From Leucosporidium creatinivorum (taxonomy: Eukaryota; Basidiomycota; Microbotryomycetes; Leucosporidiales; Leucosporidiaceae), in contig BCKL01000016.1 of assembly GCA_001600635.1 (NCBI GenBank), positions 424,449 through 488,448 on the forward strand: 64,000 nucleotides of DNA, given 5' to 3'. Both the position numbers and the translations under genes were made by a program. Position 1 is the first letter of the stretch; every line of letters starts with the position of its first letter. A model generated the notes under the pieces. The model saw only the letters and a program-made list of their open reading frames with translations, searched no databases and was not told the origin of the DNA. Positions 851 through 61,914 of this stretch are shown here, one piece after another.

Positions 851-1312
851 TGCGTCGATATGTGCTTATCCATTGCCTTCGTTAGTAAGCTGCAGCGTTG
901 CCGAAGCATCGCATCGCCGAGCTTTGACTGATCCCTGCTCCCCTCCCACAGTCTTCCTCCTCCCCGAGACCAAGAACATTCCCCTCGAGGAGATGGATCG
1001 CCTCTGGAACGAGTCCAACACCTGGAACGCCAACAAGATTGTCATGCGCGAGCTCCAGCGCGAGCACGAGGCCGTCGGCGGCGCTCCCAAGATGATCCAC
1101 CAGGACAAGCCCAACGGCGACGAGGAGCGCTTCGAGCGGTCGTCTTCCGAGATCAAGGCTTAGGTTGGGGTTGGAGGCGGTCTCTTAGGGTGTATTTCGC
1201 ATAGTTGGGTCTCGGGCTTGACGAGGACGGCCGACGAGTTTGCTGAGTTGACTTGAGCTAACATTGTAACCTGTATCTCACATTTCGCATCACATTTGTT
1301 CGATGATCTGCG
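851..1312 (+). pseudogene. Partial copy of the quinate-type permease 3' end (left arm of an inverted repeat)
   Basis: This segment repeats, in inverted orientation, the end of the permease gene at 4071-6716. It covers the end of the penultimate exon, the last intron, the complete last exon (PETKNIPLEEMDRLW onward to the stop at 1161-1163) and about 150 bases of 3' flank. The intron copy looks identical by eye from AGTAAGCTGCAGCG to the CCCACAG acceptor. The coding copy differs at only a few bases. The upstream part of the transporter is absent, so this cannot encode a transporter. It is a recent duplication, or one kept alike by gene conversion. Confidence 0.85.
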
Positions 1313-3914: not shown

Positions 3915-4388
3915 CTCGTCGCGCATATCATCGAGCAAATGTGATGCGAAATGCGAGATACAGGTTACAATGCTAGCTCAAGTCAACTAAGCAAACTCGT
4001 CGGCCGTCCTCGTTGAGCCCTAGACCTTCCTATGCGAAATACACCCTAAGAGACCGCCTCCAACCCCGACCTAAGCCTTGATCTCGGAAGATGAACGCTC
4101 GAAGCGCTCCTCGTCGCCGTTGGGCTTGTCCTGGTGGAGCATCTTGGGAGCGCCGCCAACGGCCTCGTGCTCGCGCTGGAGCTCGCGCATGACAATCTTG
4201 TTGGCGTTCCAGGTGTTGGACTCGTTCCAGAGGCGATCCATCTCCTCGAGGGGAATGTTCTTGGTCTCGGGGAGGAGGAAGACTGTGGGAGGGGAGCAGG
4301 GATCAGTCAAAGCTCGGCGATGCGATGCTTCGGCAACGCTGCAGCTTACTGACGAAGGGTATGGATAAGCACATCATCGACGCGAAGA
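3915..4388 (-). repeat. Right arm of inverted repeat (native permease 3' end)
   Basis: This arm overlaps the true 3' end of the permease and pairs, inverted, with 851-1312. Homology extends past the stop codon into the 3' flank, down to about 3915. It continues up into the penultimate exon to about 4388. The approximately 2.6-kb spacer between the arms holds only ERG1. Confidence 0.8.
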
Positions 4389-6716
4389 AGAGGTACACTC
4401 CATAGCCCATCGAGGAGAACATGTACGGCGTCGCCCTGGAGATCACAAAGTTCTGGAAGAGAGCGCCGAGGTCAGTGGTCGCTCTCTAGAGCGGTGAAGG
4501 AGAGTGGTACTCACCCAAAGCCAGTTGGAGGCAGCAGCAAGCATCTGGGTGACGGTACGGACTCCTCCGGGGAAGACCTCAGAGCAGACGACCCAGGGAG
4601 TTCTGATCAGAGAGGCGAAGGGTCAGCGCCGAGAAAGCGACTGGAGCTGTATGAGAGCACTCACCCGTTCCACGAGACGGCGTAGAAGATGGTCCAGATG
4701 TAGAAGAAGGCCATGGCCATGATGCCGCCGGAAGGAAGGGTGGTGGTGGGGTGGTTGGCAGGATCGGCGATCTTGATGTAGCCTGTGTGGAAAGGGCGGG
4801 TCAGTCTCGACTCGAGAAGAGGTGCAAAAAACCTATCACACTCACCGGCGATAACGAACATGCCGATAGCGCCACCGACGGAGCCGACGAGAAGGATACC
4901 GCGACGTCCGAAGTGGTCGATGACGAGGAAGCACCAGACGAGGGCACCGAGGGTCTTGATGACACCGAAGATACCGGTAGTGAAGAGCGAAGTGTTGGTG
5001 CCGAGGATACCGATGGACTTGAAGATGGTAGGCGAGTAGTCTGCGCGGCGAGAAGCGACAAAGTCAGCGCCGAGCAGCGCCGAGCGGCTGGCAGCGCCAG
5101 AGGTCGCCTGGAAAGTCACGTACAGTTGATGGCATTGATACCAGTTCCGTTTTGCCACATGAAGAGGCCTGCAGAACGACACGTACAAGTCAGAAAGGAA
5201 AGGGGAGAGAGAAGAAGAGAGAGAAGGCTCACTGGTGACGATCAGGAGACGCTTAAAGAGGTGCCATTGGGTGAAGACTTGGCGGAAGGGAGCCCAGAAG
5301 CCCTCTCCGACGGCAGTGCGGTCGTGCTCAACCTGGATGTCGATGGCGTTGATCTCCTCGATGAGGTAGGCGTCGTCGGCGGGGAGGCCACGGATGATGC
5401 AGAGGTTCTTGATGGCTTCCTCGCGACGACCACGGGTGATGAGCCAGCGAGGAGATTCCTTGATGAAGAAGGGGATGCCGAGAGCGAAGATACCTCCAGG
5501 GATGAGCTGGACCGCGAAGGGGATGAGCCATTGGACGTGACCCTTGGCGACGTGCTTGGTAACGCCTGTAGGAGAGAGCGGAGGGTCAGCCGTGCAGCTC
5601 GAGAGACTGTATGTACTCTGTACCTACCGTAGTTGATCCAGAAGCCAACGAGTCCTCCGATCTGCCATCCAATCTCGTACATGCCGACAAGCTGGCCTCG
5701 GATAGCGGGAGGGCTGTTGAAGTAGGGAGGTCAGCAAGCGCTCGATGGATCACAAACACAGACACGGGTGTGCGATGTGATAGAGATGGAGAGGAAGGGA
5801 GAGGAGAAGGGGAGTTTGGAGGAGGAGGCGAGACTCGGCCTTCTCGACCAGCTCGGCGCGGTCTCGAATGAAGGCGGCGAGGATGTTACGAGGGTTGTAA
5901 GGTAGTACTCACGCAATCTCCGCGATGTAAAGCGGTGTAAGGTTGGAAGCAGCACCGATACCGAGTCCTGCAAGGATACGGCCGCCGTAGATGGGTCCGA
6001 GTCCGCGAGCGCCGTTGGCGGCGAGCATGATTCCAGCGCCGAGGCAGAAGATGAGGGCCGAGAAGAGGAGTCCATTCTTGCGACCAAGGAGCTGGCCGAT
6101 AGGGTAACCGATGAGGGCGCCGAAGAAGCAACCAGCTTGGTAGGTCGAGACGATGTTGGTCGAAATGAAAGAGAATTGGGCGTTGGTGATGGTAGCGTTG
6201 GTGAGCTTGAACTCCTCCTTGAACGAGGGAAGGGAGATGGAAGTTCCGATGAAGGCAGAGTCGTATCCAATCATCTACAACACCAAGCCGAAAGGTCAGC
6301 CCACTGCAGTCGGAAGTCGAATCGACAAGGCACTCGAGGTGCCGAAGGGGTGGGGGCCGGCAGGGAAAGAAAACTCACGATGGCGGCGGTAGCGGCTACG
6401 ATGGCGCATGAGTCTGTAGAGCAGTAGAGAAGGATGTGTGAGAAGACTGTTGCTCGGCCGTCGAAGCGGTGCAGGAGCCTAGCGCCGAGAGGAGGCCGGG
6501 GGCCCTCGGTGGCGCTTTCTCCCCCCTCGTTTGACTCTTTTGTGCGGTTGATGGGGCTCAACACTTACAGACACGCCAGTTGTAGACCGCTGCAGGGGTA
6601 GGGCGGTCTGTAGACGAGGCGAAAGTCAGTCAAAGGTGCACCGAGATGCGAGCAACGAGGCGCGGCGGAGTAGGGAAGAGGTCAAACTCACCCTCGACGC
6701 GCTTGAGTCCAACCAT
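4071..6716 (-). CDS. MFS sugar-porter family permease, quinate-permease type
   Basis: This is a 12-helix transporter of the sugar porter family, of the kind that imports quinate in fungi (qa-y/QutD). Twelve exons can be followed on the minus strand. The first four are 6716-6692, 6607-6569, 6413-6379 and 6274-5913. Family marks in order are MIGYDSAFIGTSISLPSF, GYPIGQLLGRKNG, GGRILAGLGIGAASN, PESPRWLI-like KESPRWLITRGRREEA, YSPTIFKSIGI, DHFGRRG and PETKNIPLEEMDRLW. The PTIFKS and PETKN signatures are common in quinate permeases, though other sugar porters cannot be excluded. It is divergent from the 3-dehydroshikimate dehydratase gene and lies beside two shikimate/quinate dehydrogenase genes, which supports the substrate guess. 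Parts of this gene are duplicated at 851-1312 and 25.7-26.35 kb. Confidence 0.85.
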
Positions 6717-7495
6717 GCTGGGCTGAGGCTTCTTGAGGCTGAGGAAGAGAAGTCGAGAGGAAGGTGTGAGGCCGAGTCGAGGTGAGAAGCCGAGTGTGTT
6801 GGTGGAGTTGTGAACGAAAGGAAGGAGAGAGGAGAAGGGGGGCTTTTCAGTGGACAGCCAAGGAGCGAGGGGAAGAACTTGTGGAGCAGGAGTCTGGCCA
6901 GCTATACGTTTAGGGCCCCATGTGCGGGCTCAGGTGCCCCGGTCCCGCATTCAGAGCCGTCTGAGGGGAGCCACTCTCGCGAAAAGGAAGAACTCGGCGG
7001 CGGTGGTCTCGGCCTTGGCTGGTCACCTTCTGCCAGCCTGCAGAACTGCTTCCAGGATGCTCCAGCCCCGTAAGATCGATTTAAACGGTGGTAGAGCGAC
7101 TGGGAGAACTCGCCAGAGCAACAAGAAGCCGTCTGGAAGCCTCGCCGAACGAGCAGCTGAACAGCGCCGAAGGGGTCGCTTGCAGAGTCCAAGCATTCGC
7201 TAGAGCAGTGCATGTGAATTGGCCTGGGTAAGAGGGATGTTATGTAGGCTATCAGCTAGCTCCGTGCTTCTGTACAAGCTCAGCACCCGCTTCAGTTCGG
7301 CCAAGAAAGGCTCCCTCGACGGCTCAATTCGTTCTTCCCGCCTAGCGACTCGCCCTCTTGGGCAGCGAAGCAAAGCGTCGGTATCTGCCTTTGACCTTTA
7401 CCGGAATCGCTGAGCACAGCCTCTTACTACTCGACCACTCGCTGCACCTCTTCACGTCCACACCTCCCACTCCCCTTTCGCCCAGTTCGCCCCTC
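6717..7495. promoter_or_regulatory. Shared intergenic region between permease and dehydratase
   Basis: This 779-base gap separates the divergent starts of the permease (minus) and the dehydroshikimate dehydratase (plus), so it probably holds both promoters. No coding signal is seen. I could not identify a convincing binding site for a QutA/Qa-1F type activator by eye. Confidence 0.5.
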
Positions 7496-8628
7496 ATGCC
7501 TTCCTGTGGGATCGCGTCCCTCTCACTCGGTTCGTTCGAGCACCACTCGCTGCCGGCCAAGCTCGAGGCTGCCTCCAAGGCTGGTTTCCAGAACATCGAG
7601 CTCTTCGACCTGGATTGGTGGGCCTTCCGCGACTCCTACGCCGAAGTGCATGGCCTCCCTCCTTCAAAGCAAGATGGCGACTCGACTTCGCGGTTTGCCG
7701 CCGCGGCGCTCGCAACGCTCGTACAGTCATTTGGCATGGAGATCAGCTGCTGGCAGCCGCTACGGAACTTTGAGGGGTTCGTCGACGAGGAGGATACTCG
7801 GCAGTCGCGCGCCTTCGCAAAGGGAATCCTCGACATCCTCCCCATCCTCGGCACCACCCTCATCCTCTGCTGCACCACTTCCACTCCCGCACCAAAGACC
7901 TCGGGCGACCTCGACCGATGTGCAAGAGACCTCGCATGGCTCGCCGACCAAGCAGCAACCTACGACCCGCCCATTCGGGTCATGTACGAAGGCCTCTCGT
8001 TCGGCGCTCATCGTCAGCGTTGGCAGGACGCCTGGGAGGTGGTCGAGAGGGTCAACCGACCCAATCTCGGGATCTGCCTCGACTCGTTCAACACCCTGGC
8101 GCTCGAATGGGCCGACCCCTACTCCCCCTCCGGCACCCTCTCGGCGGACGTCGACGACAAGCTCGAGGCCAACATGAAGGAGCTGGTCGAGCGCGTACCG
8201 GGCAACAAGATCTTCTTCTACCAAGTCGCCGACGGTCGCTTCATGTCGCCTCCCATGACCCTCCCCGAGGATCCAACCATCCCCCGAATCCGCCCCTGGT
8301 CGCGCGGCAACCGCCTCTTCCCCCTCGAGAAGGAGCTCGGCGCCTACCTGCCCGTCGACAAGTTCTCGGATGCGGTCGTCCGTACCGGCTACGCAGGCCC
8401 CTGGTCGCTCGAGGTCTTCAACGATAGCCTCTCGGACAAGGATGAGAAGGTGCCGGAGCAGCATGCTTCGAGGGCGATGAAGGGACTCAAGGCTGCCATG
8501 GCGGATGCCTTCGCTCGCGTAGCATCAGAACGTAAGTCTTGGTTGTCGTCCCTAGTCCTCTCGAGCTCCGCTGACCCTTCTCTTCCTTCCCTTCGCCTTC
8601 CTCAGCGGTCACCCAACACAAGCTTTAG
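7496..8628 (+). CDS. 3-dehydroshikimate dehydratase
   Basis: This enzyme converts 3-dehydroshikimate to protocatechuate and is the committed step that drains quinate or shikimate into aromatic catabolism (Qa-4/QutC). Exons 7496-8531 and 8606-8628 join to give about 352 aa, ending ASEPVTQHKL. It is a TIM-barrel protein of the xylose-isomerase-like metal-binding superfamily. The N-terminus SCGIASLSLGSFEHHSLPAK, the GFQNIELFDLDWW strand, and likely metal ligands in VMYEGLSFG, GICLDSFN, FFYQVADG and SLEVFNDS are visible. It is transcribed away from the permease. The ATG chosen is the first in frame next to the conserved N-terminus; the open frame continues upstream without family signal. Confidence 0.9.
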
Positions 8629-8832
8629 TTCGATTGAGGGCCATGTAGACACTCGCACTTTGTAGATCACTCGCAGTACGCATTTTCGTAACCTAGCATA
8701 AGCGGTACACCTATCATACCACCTCAGCTTGAAGCGAGAGAGAGAAGCAAGACCGAGAGTAGCGAACGCCGAGACCTCGCGAGGTCGTCGAACGATCGCG
8801 CTAAGACGCTCTAATGCAAAGCTCTATACCAT

Positions 8833-10059
8833 CTAATCTTCTGTATCTCTCTCCTCTGCCCATCCCTCGCCACTCCACAGCCTACATCTCCACAGCGCAA
8901 CGAGCAACGGCACGACGTCCTCGGCCGCTGTCGGCTCGATCGACGTATTCGGGCTGTAGACAGCGTACATGGGTGGCGCAGGGGGGTGTTGATCGCCCGT
9001 GTCGGCGTTGGTTGATGCAGGCGAGTCTCGAGCTGCCCGTTTGGCGAAGAGTGCGATGAGGTCGTCGAGCGGGGCGCGAAGGGAGGTGATGAGGTCGGAG
9101 GCTGGGAGAGAGGGTTCGTTGGAGGGTGCCGGAGAGGTGGGCTGTGGGGGAAGAGCGCTTCCGGAGAATTTGGCGAGGTGGTAGACTGGGATGGCGGGCG
9201 CCGAGGAAGATGAGGGGAGGAACGTCGAGAAGGGCGTGTCATGGGCGTCGGCGGCCGACTCGGTGAGATCCAAGATGGCGACCAAGGTCCGTCTTTCTGC
9301 GCCTCGTTGCTCTGCTCCATGCATCGTAAGCTCGGCGAGGCTCCCCAGTGGCCTGACGGGGCACTCCCTCGGCTTCCCTCCTTCCAACAGCACCGGCCGA
9401 CTCCGTACGCGCTCGCCGAGCATAATAGCCTCTTGTACGACCCTGCGAGCGAGCTGCGACTCAATCTTGCGAGCCGTAATGGGCGGCAGGGTAGCGCTCG
9501 AGGAGATGCGCTTGTAGGAGCCTGTGGAGAGCGAGGTGAGCCATAGCCTCGTATTGTAGAGCAGCAGCGCTCACCTTTAAGTGCTACAGTATCCAACGCC
9601 TCTTTCGAGCACATGACATACGCTCCCTTGCCTGCCATGGGAGCAGCGAAGCGAGGGTGAAGGAGCGACGAGGGCGTGAGGATTTGGCGAGGTGGCTCGG
9701 CGGACTGAGAGGGAAGGCGTGCGAGCTTGAGCTGTACCATTAGATCTGCTCGGACCTCGACAGTCAGCTTCTGCGAGGCTCAAGAGCGACGAGCAAGCAC
9801 GCACCCTTGGGCAAGACTTTCTGCGTGAGTATACAGCGCCTGAGCGGTGAAGAGAGCACCTTGACTGTAGAGTGATATCAATCAGCTTGGGCTCACCCAC
9901 TGCAAGTCGCTCGAACTTACGGTACACATCGCTGGCTGCTGGATCTGGCTCAGCGGGACGCTGTCGAGCAGCGGGCTTAGCTGCAGGTAGGTCGAAGATG
10001 AACGAACGTATAGGAGCAGAGCGCAGAGCTAGTGTAGGGCGAAGTAGCTGGCGGCTCAT
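8833..10059 (-). CDS. Unrecognised protein, probably mitochondrial
   Basis: Exons join in frame from the ATG at 10059. The N-terminus MSRQLLRPTLALRSAPIRSF is basic and lacks acidic residues, like a mitochondrial presequence. Splicing then gives YLKVLSSPLRRCILTQKVLP, a short exon leading to DLMVQLKLARLPSQ. A conserved-looking block follows: LLHPRFAAPMAGKGAYVMCS, then SYKRISSSATLPPITARKIE. The last exon is rich in Ala, Ser and Pro and ends RDTED. The RRCILTQK-LPKDLMVQLK pattern suggests a mitochondrial ribosome-associated or assembly factor, but I cannot name the family. It lies inside the catabolic cluster on the dehydrogenase strand and may simply be a bystander. Confidence 0.65.
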
Positions 10060-10198
10060 GCCATCCTCGATGCGGTCGGAGCAGACGACGAGTGAAGCGC
10101 AGGAGAGCAAGCCGTGAGCTGGCTTCGTCGGTCGTTGTGGAGGGCCTGGTGTAGATCAGCTTCGCTCGAGAAAGACTCTCAGATGAGCCGTGATAGGA

Positions 10199-11666
10199 TT
10201 ACTTGGCTGCCGCCTTGATATCGCCCATACCCCTCACTCTTGCCCTCGCCGCCTCCTCAATCTCAACGCCGAGCTCGGCTCGCTTGCCACCCCAAGGCGA
10301 GGCAGCAGAGCGTAGCAGCCATGCTCGTGACTGAGCGAAGCCCTGTTCCAACATGGCTTCCACACCTGCGTAGAGGGGGAGGTCAGGGTCAGCTTCATTC
10401 GCTGCAGAAGAAGCTTCGGCGATTGAGCTCACCTCCGATTGGTGTCCAGCCAAGCGACTCGGCGATGTTGTATAGCAGGGTCTTGCGAGGCTGAACGATC
10501 AAAAATAGCGGAGGAAGTGATGGGAGGGGAATGAGACGTAAGGACGAGCGAGTCGTGATGGGTAGACGAGGGCAAGGTCGTAGTCAAAGAAAGTCAGCTC
10601 GCTCGCTCGATACAGAAAGTGGTCCCATCCGAACGCACCTTATAGCACATCTCCAGAAACAGTCTCTTCTCTCCATTCTCATTCCGACTCCCAAACACCT
10701 TCCGTGCCAGTGCATAGACGTTCCGCTCGGCGTCGGTGGCTGGCTCAAAGCTCGGGATGGCTCCTACACCGCATGCTACCTTCTCCTCGCATTCAGGTGT
10801 CCATTGCTCGAGCGTGTTGAGTGCTTGGAGGTCGTATCTGAGTGGAGGAGGGAGTCAGCGAGGGGAAGATGAGGCTCCGAACAGCAACGCCGAGCCCCGA
10901 GCTGCTCGTCGGCCTCGCCGAAGCGAAGGGGAGGCCGCGCTCGACCCCGCTGAGGGAGGAGGACTGATGCTCACTGTGGGAACTGCTTGATGATCTCCTC
11001 CGTCTCCTTCGGCTCCCGATTGATCAACCAAATCCTCACAATCCCGAGATTCCCCAGCGCATAAACCGCCGCCCTCGTAGTCCCACCACCCCCAATGATG
11101 AACGCCCACCTCCCCTTCAAAGGTAGCTCCTCCCGCTGCTTCTCCTCCGATAGCGCAAGCAGCAGGGGGTTGCGAATCCCCTCCCAGTCGGTGTTTCGGC
11201 CGAGCAGGACGGGCTGGCCTGTGGTCTGGGAGATGGAGTCGACGATGATGGTGTTGATGGAGCCGATTTCTTGAGCGTCGGGGGAGAGTATATCGACGTG
11301 AGGCATGGTGGCCACTTTGAGAGGCCTGCGAGGCGAGAGGGAGCCGGGTCAGCTGCGCGCCTGCGAAGAGCGAAAGATGCTGATGGAGAGACGTACATGG
11401 TCACAGCAGCACCACCAAAATTAGGCGAGCGAATGAGCTTCAACATCTGCGAGTCGGGGTCGTCGATGGTCTTGGTGTCGTGCAGCTCGTAGCGGTGGGG
11501 CAGTTCGAGGTCGGCGAAGATGCCGTTGTGCATGGCAGGTGAGGCGCTGTGCAGCAGGGGGTCAACACGAGTGTTTTCCTGCTGCTTCTGCTCCTGTAGC
11601 AACTCACGAGTGAGAGATTGGGTAGCCGAACAGAAAGAAGCTGCGCCTCGTGAGATCAAGCGTCAT
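10199..11666 (-). CDS. Shikimate/quinate dehydrogenase family protein (copy 1)
   Basis: This is an AroE-fold NAD(P)-dependent dehydrogenase predicted to oxidise quinate or shikimate. Six exons start at ATG 11666. The substrate half shows FLFGYPISHSASPAMHNGIF and SPNFGGAAVTMPLKVA. The cofactor half has GRNTDWEGIRNP and the nucleotide-binding loop FIIGGGGTTRAAVYAL. The last exon runs GVEAMLEQGFAQSRAW to a stop at 10199. The catalytic Lys of the PLK motif and the Asp of NTDW are present. Copy 1 is clearly diverged from copy 2 at 12209-13589, so the two may differ in substrate or cofactor. Intervening introns are short, with GCTGAC branch sites. Confidence 0.85.
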
Positions 11667-12208
11667 GCTGGGCTGGGACAGGAAGGCAGATGCTGTAGAT
11701 GCGGGAGAGCTGTAGCCTGGTAGAGTCTGGTGGTGCTGGCCGAGTGGGAAGCGATGAGGTCGAAGGCGAACAGCCTCCCAAGCCTCGAGCTGGCAGCGAA
11801 GGCAAGCCGTTGCGCTGCCGAAGCTGCTCTAAACCTCTCTTCCGGCTGCATCGACAGAAATCAAGGAGGAAAGGACAACGTAGTGGAAGCACCATCTCCC
11901 GGCGGCTTGGTAGCTAGCAAACGAATGCCGAGCACCGAGAACCGAGGTTTGCTGTCGCCCTACAGACCGCCGGCCCCTTCTGATGAGCGCGAGCTGCTTC
12001 GGCGTAACATACACCTATCATGCTTCATTCCTCTAAGTCTTAGCTCATCTCGAGCTGCTTCCTTCGCTCAAAGTCAGCAGCGAGCTATCGCCGAACCTCA
12101 CTGCTCGCCGTCCTGCACCCCTGCAGCGCCCCTCGCGCGCGTCCGAAGCCGATAATGCGATATAATACAATGCACTTCAATCCTCCAAGACCCTCCAAAC
12201 CCCACACT
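11667..12208. other. Intergenic between the two dehydrogenase genes
   Basis: About 540 bases separate two same-strand genes, so this should hold the promoter of copy 1 and the 3' end of copy 2. Several overlapping short open frames are present but none shows conservation or splice logic. Confidence 0.45.
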
Positions 12209-13589
12209 CTACTGCTCTGGCGGCTCGTTGCCCGTCTTGGAATCGTCCTCGAGCTGCTTGCGCACCGACTCAAAGATTTCGGGCAGCGGCAGGTCCTTCT
12301 CCTCGATGTTGAGCCATAGCTTCTGCTGCTCGATTCCTTGCCCTGTGGAAGTGAGGGGGCGGGTCAGAGGGAGGCTCAGAAGCAGCGCTGAGGGGCTGAG
12401 AAGGGCGAGGCCGGCGAGCAGGATGGAGGCAAACGTACAGATCATGGCCTGTTCTCCGGTGACGACGTTCCATCCACCATCCTGAGCAATCTGAGCGAGC
12501 TCTGTCCATGGGTGAGGGAAGTAGCACACTGTAGAGAAGAGCCAAGTCAGTAACGGAGCTCCGAGATGAAGAAGCGACGTTGAAACTCACTCTCAAGGAT
12601 GACACCCTTCTCGGGCTTGTTGAAGATGGCCTCAATGATAGCACGAGCGTTCTTCTCGCCAGGTGATACTGGGGGGAAGGCGGGCACGGCGCTGACGATG
12701 TAGGCTGTAAAAGGGCAGGCGAGCCGAGTCAGCTCGTCGCTCAAATACAAGTAGCGGAAAGACTACGCACCAGGTGCTTCAAGCTCAGCAACTTGTTCAG
12801 GAGTCTTGATATGGATCATGGTAGGGTTGAAGTCCGGCGAGGCGTTCTTCTTGTAGTCGGCGATGAGAGCCTCCACCTCTCCGTCGTCACGGTTGGCGAC
12901 GTAGATGGGGTTGCAGTTCATCCAGCGGTTCATAGCGTAGACAGCAGCCCTGCATGGAGGTACAAAGCATCAGTGATGGCACTACAACCTCAACCTCGGC
13001 TTTCAAGCCGCCGTGCTCGCGCCGAAGCTCACCTGCTAGCTCCTCCAGCTCCAAAGATCATCCCGGGGCGAGTCTTGCCCGACTTGATGTGCGAATCATC
13101 AGCCTTGCGAAGCGACTCTAGGACTCCAACCGAGTCGGTGTTGTGTCCAACGAGGATCCTCTCGCCATTGGGTCCCTTCTTGATGATGACGGTATTGCAG
13201 GCGCCGATGAGTCCTCCATCCTCGGTGAGCTCGTCGACGTGCTTGCAGATCTCAACCTTGTTGGGCACTGCGAAGAGCTCGAGATTAGCGAGGCCGAGGG
13301 AAAGAAGGAGAGCTGAGCTACGCACTGGTGACGGCTGAGCCTCCGCACTCTGGGTCGTTGACGAGCTTCAGGAAAGCCTCGATATCATTCGACTCGAACT
13401 TGCTGTAGTTGCGAGGGACGCCCGCGAGCCTGGTGATGGTGTTATGGAGGAAGGGAGCGTAGGTTCGCTTGAGGGGAGCTGTGGGGGGCGAAATGTGAGC
13501 TGTAGCTCGCTGGGATCCGGTGGGAGGTACTCACTTCCGAAGAGGTAAGTCTTGGCGGGCTTGTCGAAGAACTCTTGTGCGATAGGCAT
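12209..13589 (-). CDS. Shikimate/quinate dehydrogenase family protein (copy 2)
   Basis: This is a second AroE-fold dehydrogenase. It starts MPIAQEFFDKPAKTYLFG and continues APLKRTYAPFLHNTITRLAG, then DPECGGSAVT before MPNKVEICKHVDEL. The conserved IGACNTVIIK, GHNTDSVGVLESLRK and dinucleotide loop GMIFGAGGASRAAVYA are present, with catalytic residues in MPNK and HNTD. The C-terminus WLNIEEKDLPLPEIF ends at 12209. The -TYLFG and LHNTI pattern is that of the longer fungal quinate/shikimate dehydrogenases (Qa-3/QutB group). A probable 5'UTR intron (about 13596-13684, donor GTGAGTGACC, branch GCTGACC) lies directly before the ATG. Confidence 0.85.
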
Positions 13590-14008: not shown

Positions 14009-14590
14009 ATGGCCCCCATCACTCTGATGCCGCAGTGAGCGGCCCGTTGCCTCGTTCTCCAGCCTTCCCAGCGCTCACCTTACCTTCTACACCACAGCGA
14101 AGACATCGAGGGCAGGTTCATGATAGTTGCCAAAGTTATAGCTCTCGCTGGAAGAGCAGAAGAGCTGGCAACGCTGCTCAAAGCCGTGGTGAAGGAGTCG
14201 AACGATGAACCGAGCTGTCTGACGTGAGTGGGGCACATCTTCTGTCTACTCTATCGCTAGAGCTGATCTTCAAATCTACAGATACCGAGCCCGCTCGAGG
14301 TGCAGGTGACCAGAGCAACGTCTTCACCGTCATCGAAGAGTTCGGCGCTCCCTGGGTCGTCTCTCGACAGCTCTACTGACCTTTTCGTCCGTCCATAGAT
14401 ACGTATCAAGAGAAGGCCTCGCTATCCACCGGGCGGGAGAGGTGAGCGCAGCTTTCCTGGCTCTTTTGACCCTTCGCCGGCTTCGCCGAACCTCCTCGCT
14501 GACCGTCCCCCTCCCTCCTAGGCATACCTCGCTCTTCGCAGCTCGGGCACAGTGGAGAAGACCGAAGTCAACTTCTTCGAAGAGCTGTAA
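14009..14590 (+). CDS. Small ABM-domain (dimeric alpha/beta barrel) protein
   Basis: This is a short protein of the antibiotic biosynthesis monooxygenase-like fold, often a small oxygenase or a protein of unknown role. Exons 14009-14034, 14098-14223, 14282-14339, 14399-about 14442 and a last exon to 14590 encode recognisable pieces: GRFMIVAKVIALAGRAEELA, SNDEPSCLTY, NVFTVIEEYVSREGLAIHRA and AYLALRSSGTVEKTEV. The order and spacing match an ABM domain of about 100 aa. One join is a problem. Continuing from exon 2 reads CLTYRARSR and then a stop, while exon 3 needs the other frame to give NVFTVIEEY. Either an exon boundary is unusual or the gene carries a one-base frame break. Confidence 0.55.
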
Positions 14591-25309: not shown

Positions 25310-25660
25310 GAGTGTAGATGACAAGCACGAGAAGAGTGGGGCGAGCCCACGCCCATTTCTGGACCACGACCTGAACGTGGCTCCTTAGATACTCGCCATC
25401 TTCCCGCATTTTGCTGTTCTTGTTGAAGATCGGCGACGGCTATACACCCCAGACCTTGAGGGCTGAGGTGCTGTCCTACAGCCTCGTGGTATCCAGCATT
25501 TCACTCGGCGTGTATGGTTCCATGCGTGTGTAAAGATGTGTCTGTATCTCCCCACAGCACACCCGTCCACAGTCGCCGCAGTGTTTCGGCGAATGTTCCC
25601 GCTCTAGATAGCTCCGATCTCAAGCTCTGCACAGCTCAATGATGCGCTCTGAGCATGTTA
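25310..25660 (-). repeat. Inverted duplicate of the tRNA-Leu locus (older, damaged copy)
   Basis: Read on the minus strand, this segment matches 27240-27600 over roughly 330 bases. The match includes long shared stretches such as CGGCGACTGTGGACGGG and GTGAAATGCTGGATACCACG. It ends in a damaged tRNA-Leu. Differences are scattered substitutions and small indels. Confidence 0.75.
25328..25405 (-). pseudogene. tRNA-Leu(CAG) pseudogene
   Basis: The acceptor stem (GGGAAGA / TCTTCTC) and anticodon arm (CCACG TTCAGGT CGTGG) are intact. The D arm reads GGCGAGTATCTAAGGAGC, without the conserved GG, and the T loop has lost bases (GTGGGCTCGCCCCAC). Compared with the intact gene at 27514-27595, internal promoter boxes A and B are damaged, so transcription is unlikely. 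Confidence 0.75.
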
Positions 25661-25699: not shown

Positions 25700-26350
25700 C
25701 GAAGATGTCGGCAAGGGGACTGAGGGCCAGACGGGCCAGAGGTTGGCGCCGAGGAGCCGCTCGATGAGGAGGAAGCACCAGACGAGGGCGCCGAGGGTCG
25801 TGATGACACTGAAGACACCGGCAGTGAAGGTTGAAGCATTGTTGCCGAGGATATCGATAGATTTGAAGATGGTAGGCGAGTAGTCTGCACAGCGAGAACC
25901 GACAAAGTCAGCACCGAGCAGCGCCGAGCGGCTGGAAGCGCCGACGATTGCTCGAAGAGTCACGTACAGTCGATGGCGTGGATACCAGGGCCGTTCTTAA
26001 ATACGAACAACGCGGTACAGATCAACACACGCTCGAGAAGGTGCCACTGGGTAAAGACTTGGCGGAAGGGAGCACAGAAGCCCTCCCCGACAGCAGCGCG
26101 GTCGTGCTCGAGCTGGATGTCGATGGCGTCCATGTCCTCAACAATGTAGGCGTGGCGGGGAAGTCACGGACGCTGCAGGACTTCTTGACGGCTTCCTCGC
26201 GACCACCACGGGTGATGAGCCAGCGTCGAGGAGACTCCTTGATGAGGAAGGGGATGCCGAGAGCGAAGACACCTCCAGGGATGAGCTGGACCGCGAGGGG
26301 GATGAGCCATTGGACGTGACCCTTGAAAACATGCTGCGTGACGCTTGTGG
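25700..26350 (-). pseudogene. Degenerate fragment of the quinate-type permease (middle exons)
   Basis: On the minus strand this carries a diverged copy of three middle exons of the permease. It includes HVFKGHVQWLIPLAVQLIPG, IKESPRRWLITRGGREEAVK and, after an intron-like gap, DYSPTIFKSIDILGNNAS. It lacks the first five exons and everything after the middle of the eighth exon. An extra residue in PRRW and a frame change after EEAVK show it is not translated as a transporter. It is more diverged than the copy at 851-1312, so it is older. Confidence 0.8.
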
Positions 26351-27239
26351 GAGAGAGCGGTGAATCCGCTCGGCGCTCGTTTCGCGAATTCGGCGAAGTC
26401 AGCGGGCACAGAACACCGGATCCCAGAGATGCAAGGCAGTGAATTCGGTCGCAGCACAGCAGCAAGTATGTATCGAGACAGTGAGCTCCACAAATGGCAA
26501 AGCGCTATGAGTCCTGCCCTCTACTCTCTTGGTGCTCAGCGTTGAGCTGACTTAGCGCACTCGCGCTGTGTGACAGCCTCCTCATCGCTTTTCACGTGAC
26601 AAGGTAGAGGACGAACCGAGAGCCATATTAGTCCGTTCCAGAGTCCATAAAGGCTGCACGGCGGGAAGAGAAGATGAGGACTCTCCAGAGTTCGGCGGTA
26701 GCAGGCTCGGCGACCCTCACTAGCAACGCCTCGCGTGACCGGCCAAGTTTGCTGCACACCTCAAGGCCAGAGATATACAACAGCGTGTTCCGGCAGGGAG
26801 ACGACGCCTCGAGCTGCTCCTCAGCCAATAGGCAAGGTCGCGGCGAGCCCTCGCAAGCTCGGGCAGATCTGCGAGAGCGGTCTAAGAGCATTGAACCGCA
26901 CATGTCTTGCCCGAGAGGGAGTCACACACAGAGCTGAGAGACACAGGGCGATTACTCTGCAATGTCACTCGGGTCGGAACCTGACTTTAGAAGCTGGGCG
27001 GAGCGTCGCCGAAGGCCAGGCGCCGAGCGGGAGGTACGTACAGCAGCGAAGTTACCTGGCTCGTCGGAGAGACCCAGAAGTATCTTGAACTCCCTCGAAC
27101 GGCGCCTCGGCTCTCGAACTTGCAATATACACCTGTTCTGGGGGCGAAGTGCCTGCTCGGCGAACGCTCGCGAGACAAAGTCGAGCGTCTGAAGGTGATT
27201 ACCAAATCAGGCGTGCCGCGAGGCTTGATTTCACCTGGA
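26351..27239. other. Intergenic, nothing recognisable
   Basis: This lies between the permease fragment and the tRNA-Leu locus. Several 60-120 aa frames occur on both strands but have no family likeness, and no splice-linked partner exons were found. Confidence 0.4.
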
Positions 27240-27600
27240 TCAAAGCATGCTCAGTCCCTCAAAAATAGTACACAGTGCAGGAGGGGACTATCAATTGAGC
27301 ACTGTGGTCGCCGAGCTCCGGAGCATTCGCCGAACCACTGCGGCGACTGTGGACGGGGATGCTGTGGGGAGATACAGACGCATCTTTACACAAACATGGA
27401 ACCATACACGCCGAGTGAAATGCTGGATACCACGAGGCTGTAGGACAGCACCTCAGCCATCAAGGTCTGGGGTATATATCCGTCGCCGAGCTTCAACAAG
27501 AACATCAAAATGCGGGAAGATGGCCGAGTGGTCTAAGGCGCCACGTTCAGGTCGTGGTCCAGAAATGGGCGTGGGTTCGAACCCCACTCTTCTCAGACTC
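27240..27600 (+). repeat. tRNA-Leu locus arm of the inverted duplication (intact copy)
   Basis: This is homologous in inverted orientation to 25310-25660. It includes about 270 bases upstream of the tRNA gene and the tRNA itself. Confidence 0.75.
27514..27595 (+). tRNA. tRNA-Leu (anticodon CAG)
   Basis: The cloverleaf can be folded by eye. The acceptor stem pairs GGGAAGA with TCTTCTC (one G-U). The D arm is GCCGAGTGGTCTAAGGC and the anticodon stem-loop is CCACG-TTCAGGT-CGTGG, giving anticodon CAG. A long class II variable arm and a T arm GTGGG-TTCGAAC-CCCAC follow. No intron is present. The internal A and B boxes are intact. Confidence 0.95.
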
Positions 27601-50181: not shown

Positions 50182-52271
50182 ATGATGCCTCGAACTTCGA
50201 CAAACGACTCGCAGGACGAGTACTCGCCTCCACCATGGCTCAACAGCAGGAGTAAGAGGAGATACGGCCGTCGAGGGAGCAGCGGGCGAGGGAGGGATCC
50301 GTCGAGCGAAGATGAGGAGGATCTGTTGTCGACGAGTTTTGAGACGACGAGCGAGGTGAGTGCAACCAGCTTGACTCTTTCAATCGCTGTACTGACACTT
50401 TCACTTCTGCAGGACGACGACCTGCCATCTTCCGGCTCTCGTCGGCGGAAAAGACGTCCCCTTCTTCCGCTCACCGAGCCTCTGGACGATCAAGAAGGCT
50501 CCCAGCACCAGCTCGTGTTCATCCTCGCTGCTGTTTGCGGTCTCTGTCTGCTGGTACTCGGTGGATTCGCCCTCTACGAGTACTACAAGTTGAAGACGGG
50601 AAACTCGGCCATGTTCAGTTCGGCCGATCCCACAGCGACCACCGCCACCACTCGAGCGCCTCCAACACCAACAAGAACCCCGACAGAGGACTCAGGATCC
50701 GATGAAGAGGCGCCGCCACCCACTGGAGCGAGCAAGACGAGCTCGAGCGCTTCGACGTCAACCTCGGCGCCGGCCGGAACCTCGCCTCCAGCTTCGGACT
50801 CGCCAGGCTTGAGCTCATCAGATCCTTTGCTGTCGGAGGAGATCATCAAGCTGATCAAGTCTAATCTCGCGGCGAACGACGGCGATACGTGAGTCTCGCA
50901 GTTTTCCTTTCACCGAGGGGCTGAAGCAAGCTTTTGCACAGGCGAGGCTGATCTCGCCCTTACTCTTTCGTGCGCGTGTACAGCTGGGTATCTGGTACTG
51001 AGACCCAAGCACTACTCGAGCTTGACTTCCCCGAGCTCTCCGTCTTCTCGCCAACCTGGCTCAAATCGACCCTCGTCCCCTCATCTACCAACGCCATCAT
51101 CGACGAATGGAACTCGAAGCGACCCGAAGGTGCTCAGCAGTTCGCAGAGATATCGGGTGGAGCTGCTGGGGACCCTGCCTCGCTCGGTGTAGCCTGGATC
51201 CTGGCGGCCAAGTCCAAGTCAGGCCTCGAGCAGGCCATCAAGCAGGAGCTGGACTACCTGCTGAAGACTGTTCTCCGCACCTCGGATGGTGCTATCAGTA
51301 TGCGACCTCCTGGGGAGTCAGTGCAGCTTTGGTGAGTGCTCATGGGAAGGGAAGAGCTGCGAGCTGCGCTAACGCCGAGCTTGCTTTTGCAGGAATGACT
51401 ACGTCTGTGAGCTCGACTCGTCTCTCACTGGCATCCGAAAGAAATGCTGATTCATCTTCCGCGCTCAACAGACATGGTGCCGCCCTTCCTTGCTGCTTAC
51501 GGCGCCTTCAACTCGGACACCTCGGCGCTCAAGGAAGCCTACACTCAGTGCAAGCTGTACCGCAACTACCTTCAAGATCCAACGACGAAGCTATGGAAGC
51601 ACATCGTTCAGGGTGATTGGGGAGATGCAGGCCTCTGGGGAACTGGTGAGCTGGTCCACTTTCCTCGTCACCAAATGAGCGCCGAGCTAACGCCCCACGC
51701 CTACAGGAAACGCATGGGCAGCCGCCGGCATGACTCGAGTCACAGCGACTATGATCAACTCGCCCTACGCCAGCTCATTTGCCCCGGAGATCAATGACCT
51801 TCGCTCGTGGATCGACGAGATCTTCGTCGCCGCCTTTTCGAAGGTGGTGAGCCGTGTTCGGCTCTCCTTGCTGTCTACCAGCTCTGACAGCTCTACGTGA
51901 TTATAGCAATCCGGTAACCTCCTTCCCAACTACTACGACAAGTCCTCGACCTTCTCAGACTCGGCTTCCTCGGCCCTCCTCGCTGCCACTTCCTTCCGCC
52001 TCGCCACTCTGGGCCTCACTCAGACCTCGACCAACCTCGCTGTCGCTTCCGCCATTCGCCTTGCTGTCAATGCGAAGGTCGATACCAAGTCTGGATGGCT
52101 GCAGGACGTCGTGGTGAATTGGAGCCGCCGAGCTGTCAGCGCCGAGTTTTGAGCTGACCTTCCTTCGCCTCACAGGATCCTCTCAGCTGGGAGGTGGAAG
52201 TCAACAAGTCGCCCGAGGGACAAGCTTTCGTGCTCCTCCTTCAAGCCGCTTGGATCGACTACGCTCTATAG
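50182..52271 (+). CDS. Type II membrane protein with six-hairpin (GH88/GH105-like) domain
   Basis: The N-terminal module is an acidic/Ser/Arg cytosolic tail (MMPRTSTNDSQDEYSPPPW) and one helix, HQLVFILAAVCGLCLLVLGG, followed by FALYEYYKLKTGNSA and a Thr/Ser/Pro linker. The second part resembles (alpha/alpha)6 unsaturated-uronyl hydrolases, with WVSGTETQALLELDFPELSV, GGAAGDPASLGVAWILAAKS, MVPPFLAAYGAFNSDTSALK, GDWGDAGLWGTGNAWAAAGM and NLLPNYYDKSSTFSDSAS. The enzyme should face the cell exterior. Catalytic residues cannot be assigned with certainty. Its catalytic part is nearly identical to the secreted protein at 60350-61914, while its anchor resembles the neighbour at 52650-54894. Confidence 0.75.
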
Positions 52272-52649
52272 ATTTCCTTCTTCTCCTGAGAGCCGAGCGA
52301 GCCTGTAGATACGGAAGGACGTCCCCTAAGGGGGTTTTCAAGACTGTAGGATGTAATGCTGAAGTGAAGCTGATGCTGTAGTCCAGCTGTAGTCCTGACG
52401 CGAGCTGCTGGCTCTCTCTTTGCCACCTTCGGCAACGCCGAGCTCAGGTCTCCTTGCTCTTCGCTTGTCACCTTGCTCCCCTTCAGCTTTCCAAGCTCTC
52501 TCTTCATCTTCCCGACCTACAAGTCTGCACCTCTTGAACTTCTACTCACCTACAGGATGCCTCCTGTCTCGCTCGCTACCCCAGTCCTCGGAGGCTCCTG
52601 CGAACGTTTCCACCGAAGTCGAGACGGTTCGACTCCCACCACGACAACA
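52272..52649. other. Intergenic between the two anchored glycosidase genes
   Basis: This holds the 3' end of one gene and the leader of the next. An upstream in-frame ATG at 52558 would lengthen the second protein by 31 residues, but the homologous start is at 52650. Confidence 0.45.
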
Positions 52650-60079: not shown

Positions 60080-60349
60080 GAGATACGACTAAGACGCGGG
60101 AGCGAGAGCGAAGGAGAAGAATACGCAATGAAGCTTTTCAAGCCCCTCAATCGGCTCCGAGAGCCTCGCCGAAAGATCGCCGAGTGACAGCTCAGGCGCA
60201 TCGACGGTTGATGACGAGGGTAGCTGATACATGGCAACAATGGCACGTAATTATGAGACGATACACTCGAGCGAGTCCTCGGGCGCCTCTTCGGTGGACG
60301 TCTTCCGACTCTAATGACTCGCTCGGTTTCTAAAGGGGAAGGCAGCAAT

Positions 60350-61914
60350 CTAGAGAGCAACGTAGTCGGTCCAAGCGGCCTGGAGGAGCAGCACGAAAGC
60401 TTCTCCCTCAGGCGACTTGTTAACTTCTACCTCCCAGTTGAGAGGATCCTGTGAGGCGAGAGAGAGGTGAGCTCAAGACTCGGCGCGAACAGCTCGGCGG
60501 CTCAAACTCACCACGACGTCCTGCAGCCATCCAGACTTGGTATCGACCTTCGCATTGACAGCAAGGCGAATGGCGGAAGCGACGGCGAGGTTGGTCGAGG
60601 TCTGCGTGAGGCCCAGAGTGGCGAGGCGGAAGGGGGTGGCGGCGAGGAGGGCCGAGGAAGCCGAGTCTGAGAAGGTCGAGGACTTGTCGTAGTAGTTGGG
60701 AAGAAGGTTACCGGATTCCTATAATCACGTAGAGTTGTCAGAGCTGGTAGACAGCAAGGAGAGCCGAACACGGCTCACCAGCCTCGAGAAGGCGGCGACG
60801 AGGATCTCGTTGGTCCAAGAGCGAAGGTCATTGATCTCCGAGGCGAACCCGCTGGCGTAGGGCGAGTTGATCATAGTGGCTGCGACGCGGGTCATCCCAG
60901 CTGCAGCCCAGGCGTTTCCTATGAAAGATAGCTGGTTAGCTCGGCGATCGCTCGGCGCACGAAGAAATGTGCGAGCTCACCAGTTCCCCAGAGACCCGCA
61001 TCTCCCCAGTCGCCCTGGACGATGTGCTTCCAAAGCTTAGTCGATGGATCCTGAAGGTAGTTGCGGTACAGCTTGCATTGAGTGTAGGCTTCCCTGAGGA
61101 CAGTGGTGTCCGAGTTGAAAGCCCCGTACGCAGCGAGGAAAGGCGGGACCATGTCTATTCGAGGGCGAAAGACGGGTCAGCATGCTTCTCAAACGATTCA
61201 CGTCTTCCGAGTCGAGCTCACACATGTAGTCAGCCCTGCAAAAGCAAGCTCGGCGTTAGCGCAGCTCATCGCTCTCCCTTCTTTTTCAGAACTCACCAGA
61301 GTTGAACCGACTCGTCGGCGGGCCTTATGCTAATAGCCCCATCGGATGTGCGAGGAACGGTTTTCAACAGGTAGTCCAGCTCCTGCTTGATGACCTGCTC
61401 GTAGCTTGACTTGGGCTCGGACTTGGCCGCCAGGATCCAGGCTACGCCGAGCGAGGCAGGGTCTCCAGCAGCTCCACCCGAGACCACAGCCATCTGCTGA
61501 GCATTCGAAGGTCGCTTGGCGGCCCATTTGTCGATGATGGCGTTGGTGGATGAGGGGACGAGGGTTGAGGTGAGCCAAGTCGGCGAGAAGACGGAGAGCT
61601 CGGGGTAATCGAGCTCGAGCAAGGCTTGGGTCTCGGTACCGGATACCCAGCTGTACAATTGCGTATAGGAGGAAGACGAGGGAGGTCAGCTTCGCGTCGC
61701 GCCGTGTCCAGAGAGCTTCCTGAAGCTCTTCGGCAGGCCTGCGAGCAGGAGAATGATAAACTCACCTATCGGCGTCATTTGCTGCAAGATTGGCCTTGAC
61801 TAAGGAAAGAGTAGCGGTGGAAAGAGATCCTCGAGGTGTAGAGGTGGGAGCCGCGAGCACAGAGGCCCCAGCAGCGAGGGCGCCGAGAATGAACGAGGGT
61901 GAGGGAGCGAGCAT
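60350..61914 (-). CDS. Secreted six-hairpin (GH88/GH105-like) glycosidase
   Basis: This is the twin of the catalytic part of the gene at 50182-52271, in opposite orientation. It begins with a signal peptide, MLAPSPSFILGALAAGASVL, cleaved probably near VLAAPTS, and then enters the shared region at LVKANLAANDADRSWVSGTE. The remainder, including GGAAGDPASLGVAWILAAKS, MVPPFLAAYGAFNSDTTVLR, GDWGDAGLWGTGNAWAAAGM and NLLPNYYDKSSTFSDSAS, is nearly identical, ending AAWTDYVAL. Intron positions match the twin. Each intron contains one or two CTCGGCG motifs. The product should be soluble and extracellular, probably acting on uronic-acid-containing oligosaccharides (inference from the fold only). Confidence 0.78.

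Follow-up and report, generated by a model that had tools for sequence, protein, structure and literature searches.

A probable quinate/shikimate catabolic gene cluster beside a putative activator/repressor gene pair in Leucosporidium creatinivorum

Passages of PMC12610400 describe the quinate clusters of Neurospora crassa (qa), Aspergillus nidulans (qut) and Aspergillus niger as having the same gene set as the cluster analysed below, with linked activator and repressor genes. According to passages of the same source and of PMC10512348, quinate utilisation in Neurospora and Aspergillus is governed by an activator/repressor protein pair of this type, and in A. niger such pairs also regulate the use of galacturonate and tannate. 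Further ascomycete clusters are described in excerpts on Ophiostoma (PMC3680317) and the Ceratocystidaceae (PMC8896014). AROM-derived repressor modules are described in Pezizomycotina (passages of PMC5488244 and PMC6528562), and such repressors are regarded as probably catalytically inactive (passages of PMC10512348 and PMC6528562). Here we analyse a stretch of 64,000 nucleotides from Leucosporidium creatinivorum (contig BCKL01000016.1, here C16:424449-488448; hereafter the window), part of a 27.7 Mb genome in 63 contigs. It carries a group of genes that we read, with a probability of about 0.78, as a cluster for the catabolism of two plant acids, quinate and shikimate. What the sequence itself provides for this reading are the gene families, their linkage, the alignment of metal ligands and of AroE catalytic residues, and another locus of similar composition.

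A sequence-only reading of the window had placed four genes within 9.5 kb, namely a permease, a 3-dehydroshikimate dehydratase and two AroE-fold dehydrogenases. All four were recovered within 4071-13589 as models spliced by hand along the reading frames with GT..AG introns, alongside a constrained home-made Viterbi prediction script, and the Pfam matches of all four proteins exceed the curated cut-offs (Table 1). The permease and dehydratase genes lie on the - and + strands of these models and are transcribed divergently, as had been claimed. A fifth gene, which adds to the original four-gene description, sits between the dehydratase gene and AroE-2. A Pfam scan of this inner gene returned zero matches, and its start looks mitochondrial by eye.

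The single solved relative of the dehydratase at E <= 0.001 is 5hmq (E 6.7e-25). Its deposited name is 4-hydroxyphenylpyruvate dioxygenase, and we take it to be a fusion of this enzyme with a Pseudomonas dehydroshikimate dehydratase, whose metal ligands are presumably Glu, Asp, Gln and Glu. The Glu, Asp, Gln and Glu of the C16 dehydratase align with these four positions, which are kept in all four distinct dehydratase-like proteins aligned (C16, C3 and two on C22). By this match and these positions, a dehydroshikimate dehydratase is linked to the other genes as in a qa/qut cluster. In the model its C-terminus (8617-8628) reads -HKL, an ending that we take to resemble a peroxisomal targeting signal. 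For the dehydrogenases, seven positions that we take to be the AroE substrate and catalytic residues served as alignment reference. AroE-2 carries all seven (S-x-S-P, VTMPxK, NT, NTD and the C-terminal Gln), while AroE-1 has T-Y-A-P where S-x-S-P is expected and keeps the Lys, Asp, Asn and Gln. The top-scoring solved relatives of both are AROM polypeptides, in their shikimate dehydrogenase (SDH) part, and sequence alone gives no assignment of quinate versus shikimate to either.

The 30 kb left of the window were also examined. They hold a putative Zn2Cys6/Fungal_trans activator gene and a gene for an AROM-derived, repressor-like protein, which are divergent with a 363-bp promoter between them; by protein type this is the adjacent activator and repressor pair of a qa/qut cluster. 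Among solved chains the repressor-like protein is most like AROM, and it ends in a degenerate SDH-like part. Because a qa/qut-type pair adjoins, the qa/qut-like reading is stronger than first claimed. The pair is separated from the permease gene by a DUF4202 gene, an inverted copy of the 3' end of the permease gene and a squalene epoxidase gene.

For substrates, induction, the direction of flux and the role of the repressor we infer the following scheme. The permease would import quinate and shikimate, and the AroE-fold enzymes would oxidise either or both of them, giving 3-dehydroquinate from quinate and 3-dehydroshikimate from shikimate. Dehydroquinate would be converted to dehydroshikimate by an enzyme beyond the four-gene group, and the dehydratase would then turn dehydroshikimate into protocatechuate, ahead of ring cleavage. 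The Zn2Cys6 protein would activate the genes, and binding of a pathway intermediate would lift the block that the AROM-derived protein places on it.

Table 1. Cluster genes, regulators, the second locus and further features. Positions are those of the window unless a contig is named.
Feature	Position	Strand	Details
Permease, Sugar_tr family	4071-6716	-	12 exons, 546 aa; Pfam Sugar_tr E 2.9e-129
3-dehydroshikimate dehydratase (putative QutC/Qa-4/QuiC role)	7496-8628	+	2 exons, 352 aa; AP_endonuc_2 E 1.7e-25
Inner gene, no known domain	~8811-10059	-	from open reading frames and reading frames; model approximate
AroE-2, AroE-fold dehydrogenase	10199-11666	-	6 exons, 327 aa; Shikimate_dh_N E 2.6e-22
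AroE-1, AroE-fold dehydrogenase	12209-13589	-	7 exons, 319 aa; Shikimate_dh_N E 2.2e-16
Repressor-like, AROM-derived	C16:417190-420033	-	821 aa; SKI E 1.7e-27, type I dehydroquinase E 8.1e-38
Zn2Cys6/Fungal_trans activator gene	C16:420397-424046	+	954 aa; E 1.3e-5 and 7.4e-14
Second locus	C3:689104-707313 (689-707 kb)		Fe-ADH, intradiol dioxygenase, AroE-a, AroE-b, transcription factor, repressor-like, no-Pfam gene, AroE-c, dehydratase
Type II dehydroquinase	C12:139766-140907		178 aa, complete
Inverted duplicate of permease 3' end (relic)	852-1312	+	95.7% identity over 462 bp to 3922-4383
Degenerate relic of permease middle exons	25761-26360	-	86.5%, two blocks (326 + 237 bp) to 5259-5581 and 4917-5151; frames broken
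Small ABM-like frame	~14009-14400	+	E 7e-4
8-kb inverted repeat	C22:452393-460409 and C22:476707-484720		arms 98.7% identical
275-bp inverted repeat	25329-25599 and 27320-27594		93% identical
tRNA-Leu(CAG)	27514-27595		mostly within the second 275-bp copy
Inverted pair	50977-52333 and 60286-61657		84.7% identical

A genome search with the type I dehydroquinase and the AroE N-terminal domain led to a second quinate/shikimate-type locus, on contig C3, which sets the upper quinate/shikimate route next to ring-cleavage genes. An intradiol dioxygenase gene and an Fe-ADH gene (maleylacetate-reductase-like by eye) adjoin there, and therefore the module appears tied to ring breakdown. Its activator and repressor genes are convergent. 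In the incomplete model of the transcription factor the first 400 aa score 19.1 bits against a Fungal_trans cut-off of 23, and a scan of that model reported no Zn_clus match, the Cys pattern being visible by eye. Between the two loci the dehydratases share 34% identity, and the AroE-type proteins, including the AROM domain, are 25-43% identical pairwise except for AroE-a and AroE-c (73%). None of the 45 genome matches of the permease lies on C3, and its next paralogue, on C8, is 47% identical in the best stretch. Because identities are low and the permease has no match on C3, the two loci appear to be no recent copy of each other. AroE-type matches outside AROM (five genes) were found only in these two loci. 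This is a lower bound, as the family searches ignore introns: one of them missed AroE-1, AroE-a and AroE-c, which another search found. A tree of six AroE-type proteins, AROM domain included, gave starred support only at AroE-a/AroE-c and AroE-b/AROM, with AroE-1 on a long branch, and bears no claim on descent.

Several observations weigh against a quinate/shikimate cluster. The permease had been called quinate-type, which we take to reflect a resemblance to QutD. Membership of the Sugar_tr family (PF00083) is what the analysis itself shows, but the nearest solved relatives are sugar transporters, and the family is broad. The QA-1F site, presumably a 16-bp palindrome of Neurospora, was sought in 11 promoter stretches, with 300 random 500-bp stretches for comparison. 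QA-1F-like sites were not above chance in the 11 stretches: the best had 3 mismatches, in one stretch, against 7/300 random stretches with 3 or fewer. The activator here may bind another site. CGG dyads in the same 11 stretches showed nothing clearly beyond chance, as judged without a formal test. A genome search for DHquinase_II found no type II dehydroquinase (Qa-2/QutE) linked to the cluster. Moreover, the same type of activator/repressor module is also found to regulate the use of galacturonate and of gallate/tannate (passages of PMC12610400 and PMC10512348), and six Cryptococcus species descriptions, in an excerpt of PMC12262581, report no growth on quinic acid; therefore quinate use is not general in basidiomycetes. 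As for the permease, QutD too is assigned to PF00083 in a passage of PMC12610400, and the match here places a linked permease in that family, at family level only.

The gene order also counts against the reading, in that the squalene epoxidase and DUF4202 genes split the regulators from the structural genes and the inner gene interrupts the latter. An unrelated gene inside the group, and the housekeeping-type squalene epoxidase and DUF4202 genes that separate it from the regulators, are what would be expected of chance neighbours, in which a general sugar transporter, a sugar-isomerase-like barrel and AroE paralogues would have unrelated roles. We consider such a coincidence very improbable. 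The dehydratase matches 5hmq, and a similar set of genes is seen at two places in the genome, compared with ~1e-4 loci expected by uniform placement to have a repressor-like gene with AroE and dehydratase genes within 25 kb. That estimate is post hoc, with 2 repressor-like genes, 5 AroE genes and 3 dehydratase loci as inputs.

The claim of a qa/qut uptake and conversion cluster thus holds for the gene families, with a regulator pair nearby, but the dehydroquinase step falls outside the four-gene group. Both DHquinase_II matches in the genome are to one gene, on contig C12, whose neighbours look unrelated (named by eye). Candidates for converting dehydroquinate to dehydroshikimate would be this type II enzyme, AROM or possibly the C16 repressor-like protein. 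Passages of PMC12610400 propose AROM as the explanation for the growth of an A. niger dqdA deletion on quinate, and cite work in A. nidulans in which AROM doing the catabolic step required fivefold overexpression. The four clustered genes complete a route from shikimate and not from quinate, with the type II dehydroquinase away on C12, and AroE-2 has the canonical S-x-S-P motif. These points would suit a shikimate-only salvage, in which import by the permease and oxidation by the AroE enzymes lead straight from shikimate to dehydroshikimate, from which the dehydratase forms protocatechuate; dehydroquinase is then unneeded, and any use of quinate is left to other genes. We hold this to be distinctly unlikely, given that known quinate clusters can be without an enzyme gene, as in A. 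niger (a passage of PMC12610400), and that the repressor-like protein has a near-complete dehydroquinate-binding site.

That site was compared with the genome's own AROM (gene on C6) and with solved AROM chains, using as a checklist eight positions that we take to form the type I dehydroquinase active site. The C16 protein keeps seven of the eight, in the motifs ELRVD (Glu and Arg), TVRT (Arg), AAHD (His), IIKF (Lys), ISR (Arg) and PGQ (Gln). The eighth, before APGQ, is Ala in the C16 protein and Ser in the genome's own AROM. Its shikimate kinase positions are kept as well (P-loop, DxD, Arg, GGG and two lid/substrate Arg). In the C3 paralogue the His and Gln are lost, the Lys is replaced by Arg and one shikimate kinase Arg is lost. 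NTD and VTxPxK have been lost from the SDH-like part of both proteins. In the solved AROM chain 7tbv, Gln and Arg take the place of the His and Lys, and therefore such residues can be lost even in AROM. The loss of dehydroquinase catalytic residues attributed to the inactive QutR/Qa-1S was not seen in the C16 protein, the ascomycete repressors being compared by description only. The kept residues do not prove dehydroquinase activity; they may serve inducer binding, catalysis or both.

A plain qa/qut cluster would have a catalytically dead repressor, its residues on C16 kept only to bind the dehydroquinate inducer. In the proposal of Hawkins et al. 1993, as cited in a passage of PMC6528562, dehydroquinate is bound but not turned over by the dehydroquinase-like domain, and both the degenerate SDH-like third part and the Ala before APGQ would agree with this. 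However, the same Ala occurs in the solved AROM 6hqv, and the C16 protein keeps the Schiff-base Lys, the His and the shikimate kinase positions, whereas the C3 paralogue is without the His, Lys and Gln. We put the dead repressor at even odds, which overlap those of the quinate/shikimate cluster, as what it rivals is a catalytic role of the repressor and not the pathway. That catalytic role, which we think unlikely, would make the C16 protein both sensor and enzyme: its type I domain would convert dehydroquinate, fill the missing linked type II step and destroy its own inducer, and the C3 paralogue would represent a later, purely regulatory state. AROM-derived repressors are a textbook example of regulators that arose from an enzyme. 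If true, the near-complete and the lost dehydroquinase site in the two modules would form a before-and-after pair for the step from enzyme to sensor.

Besides the genes above, the window holds two permease relics (Table 1). On contig C22, each arm of an 8-kb inverted repeat carries reading frames that resemble dehydroshikimate dehydratase, together with what look by eye like a transcription factor gene and part of a transporter; the second arm stops exactly at the contig end, and an assembly artefact is possible. In the promoter stretches the 8-mers AGACGAGC (5/11) and CAGCTCTC (6/11) are mildly enriched, uncorrected for multiple testing. Adjoining AroE-1, a small frame resembles an ABM (antibiotic-biosynthesis-monooxygenase) domain, at a score under the Pfam cut-off and with unsure junctions. 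Among the genes right of 13.6 kb, whose scanned models match GH5, MFS, methyltransferase and GH88, no relation to the cluster was seen. The second copy of a 275-bp inverted repeat holds most of a tRNA-Leu(CAG), and ARAGORN found no tRNA in the other copy. The right-hand gene model of a further inverted pair matches Glyco_hydro_88.

The sequence-only reading had also suggested a likely basidiomycete. A 134-aa piece of phenylalanine ammonia-lyase matches 1t6j, which we take to be the red-yeast enzyme, and 1y2m, both at E 1.6e-56. Other chains follow at 3.3e-27 or weaker, headed by a plant enzyme, and 1t6j shares 89 of the 132 aligned residues with the piece. Together with short, dense introns and 59% GC this probably fits a red-yeast-like member of the Pucciniomycotina and is consistent with the suggestion, as one marker and not as proof. 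Gluck-Thaler and Slot 2018 (ISME J) reportedly survey clusters of the qa/qut kind and may cover basidiomycete ones. In the titles, abstract openings and passages of the literature searched, which included passages of PMC5693591 and PMC10406623 with nothing on such clusters, no basidiomycete qa/qut cluster is described; this is a weak negative, by which novelty in print is not established. Two modules in a probable basidiomycete would push the origin of the module back towards the split of both phyla, or point to transfer.

Taken together, the C16 locus resembles qa and qut, as these appear in passages of PMC12610400, in having a permease, an AroE-fold dehydrogenase, a dehydratase, a Zn2Cys6 activator and an AROM-derived repressor in one neighbourhood. 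It differs in being without a linked type II dehydroquinase, in having two AroE genes where qa/qut have one, in the separation of regulators from enzymes by unrelated genes, in the second locus on C3, and in a repressor-like protein that retains most dehydroquinase residues, the ascomycete repressors being known here by description. Among the models scanned, which were not all models, there were no QutG/Qa-x- or QutH-like genes, and no genome search was made for these families. Like A. niger qut, the locus is split, in that one part of the pathway is encoded away from the cluster (passages of PMC12610400). There the off-cluster step is quinate dehydrogenase and here it is the type II dehydroquinase, and incomplete linkage therefore has a precedent.

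In the C16 repressor-like protein, the shikimate kinase, type I dehydroquinase and SDH-like parts follow one another as they do in the pentafunctional AROM enzyme (the genome's own C6 gene; 6hqv, 7u5s, 5swv), and 231 of 658 aligned positions are identical between it and a piece of the own AROM. Unlike AROM, it shows no match for the first two domains of that enzyme, and its SDH-like part is without NTD and VTxPxK. The gaaR/gaaX and tanR/tanX modules of A. niger have the same pair of protein types, with their genes side by side (passages of PMC12610400 and PMC10512348). In contrast to these, the pair described here lies near AroE and dehydroshikimate dehydratase genes, and does so at both loci.

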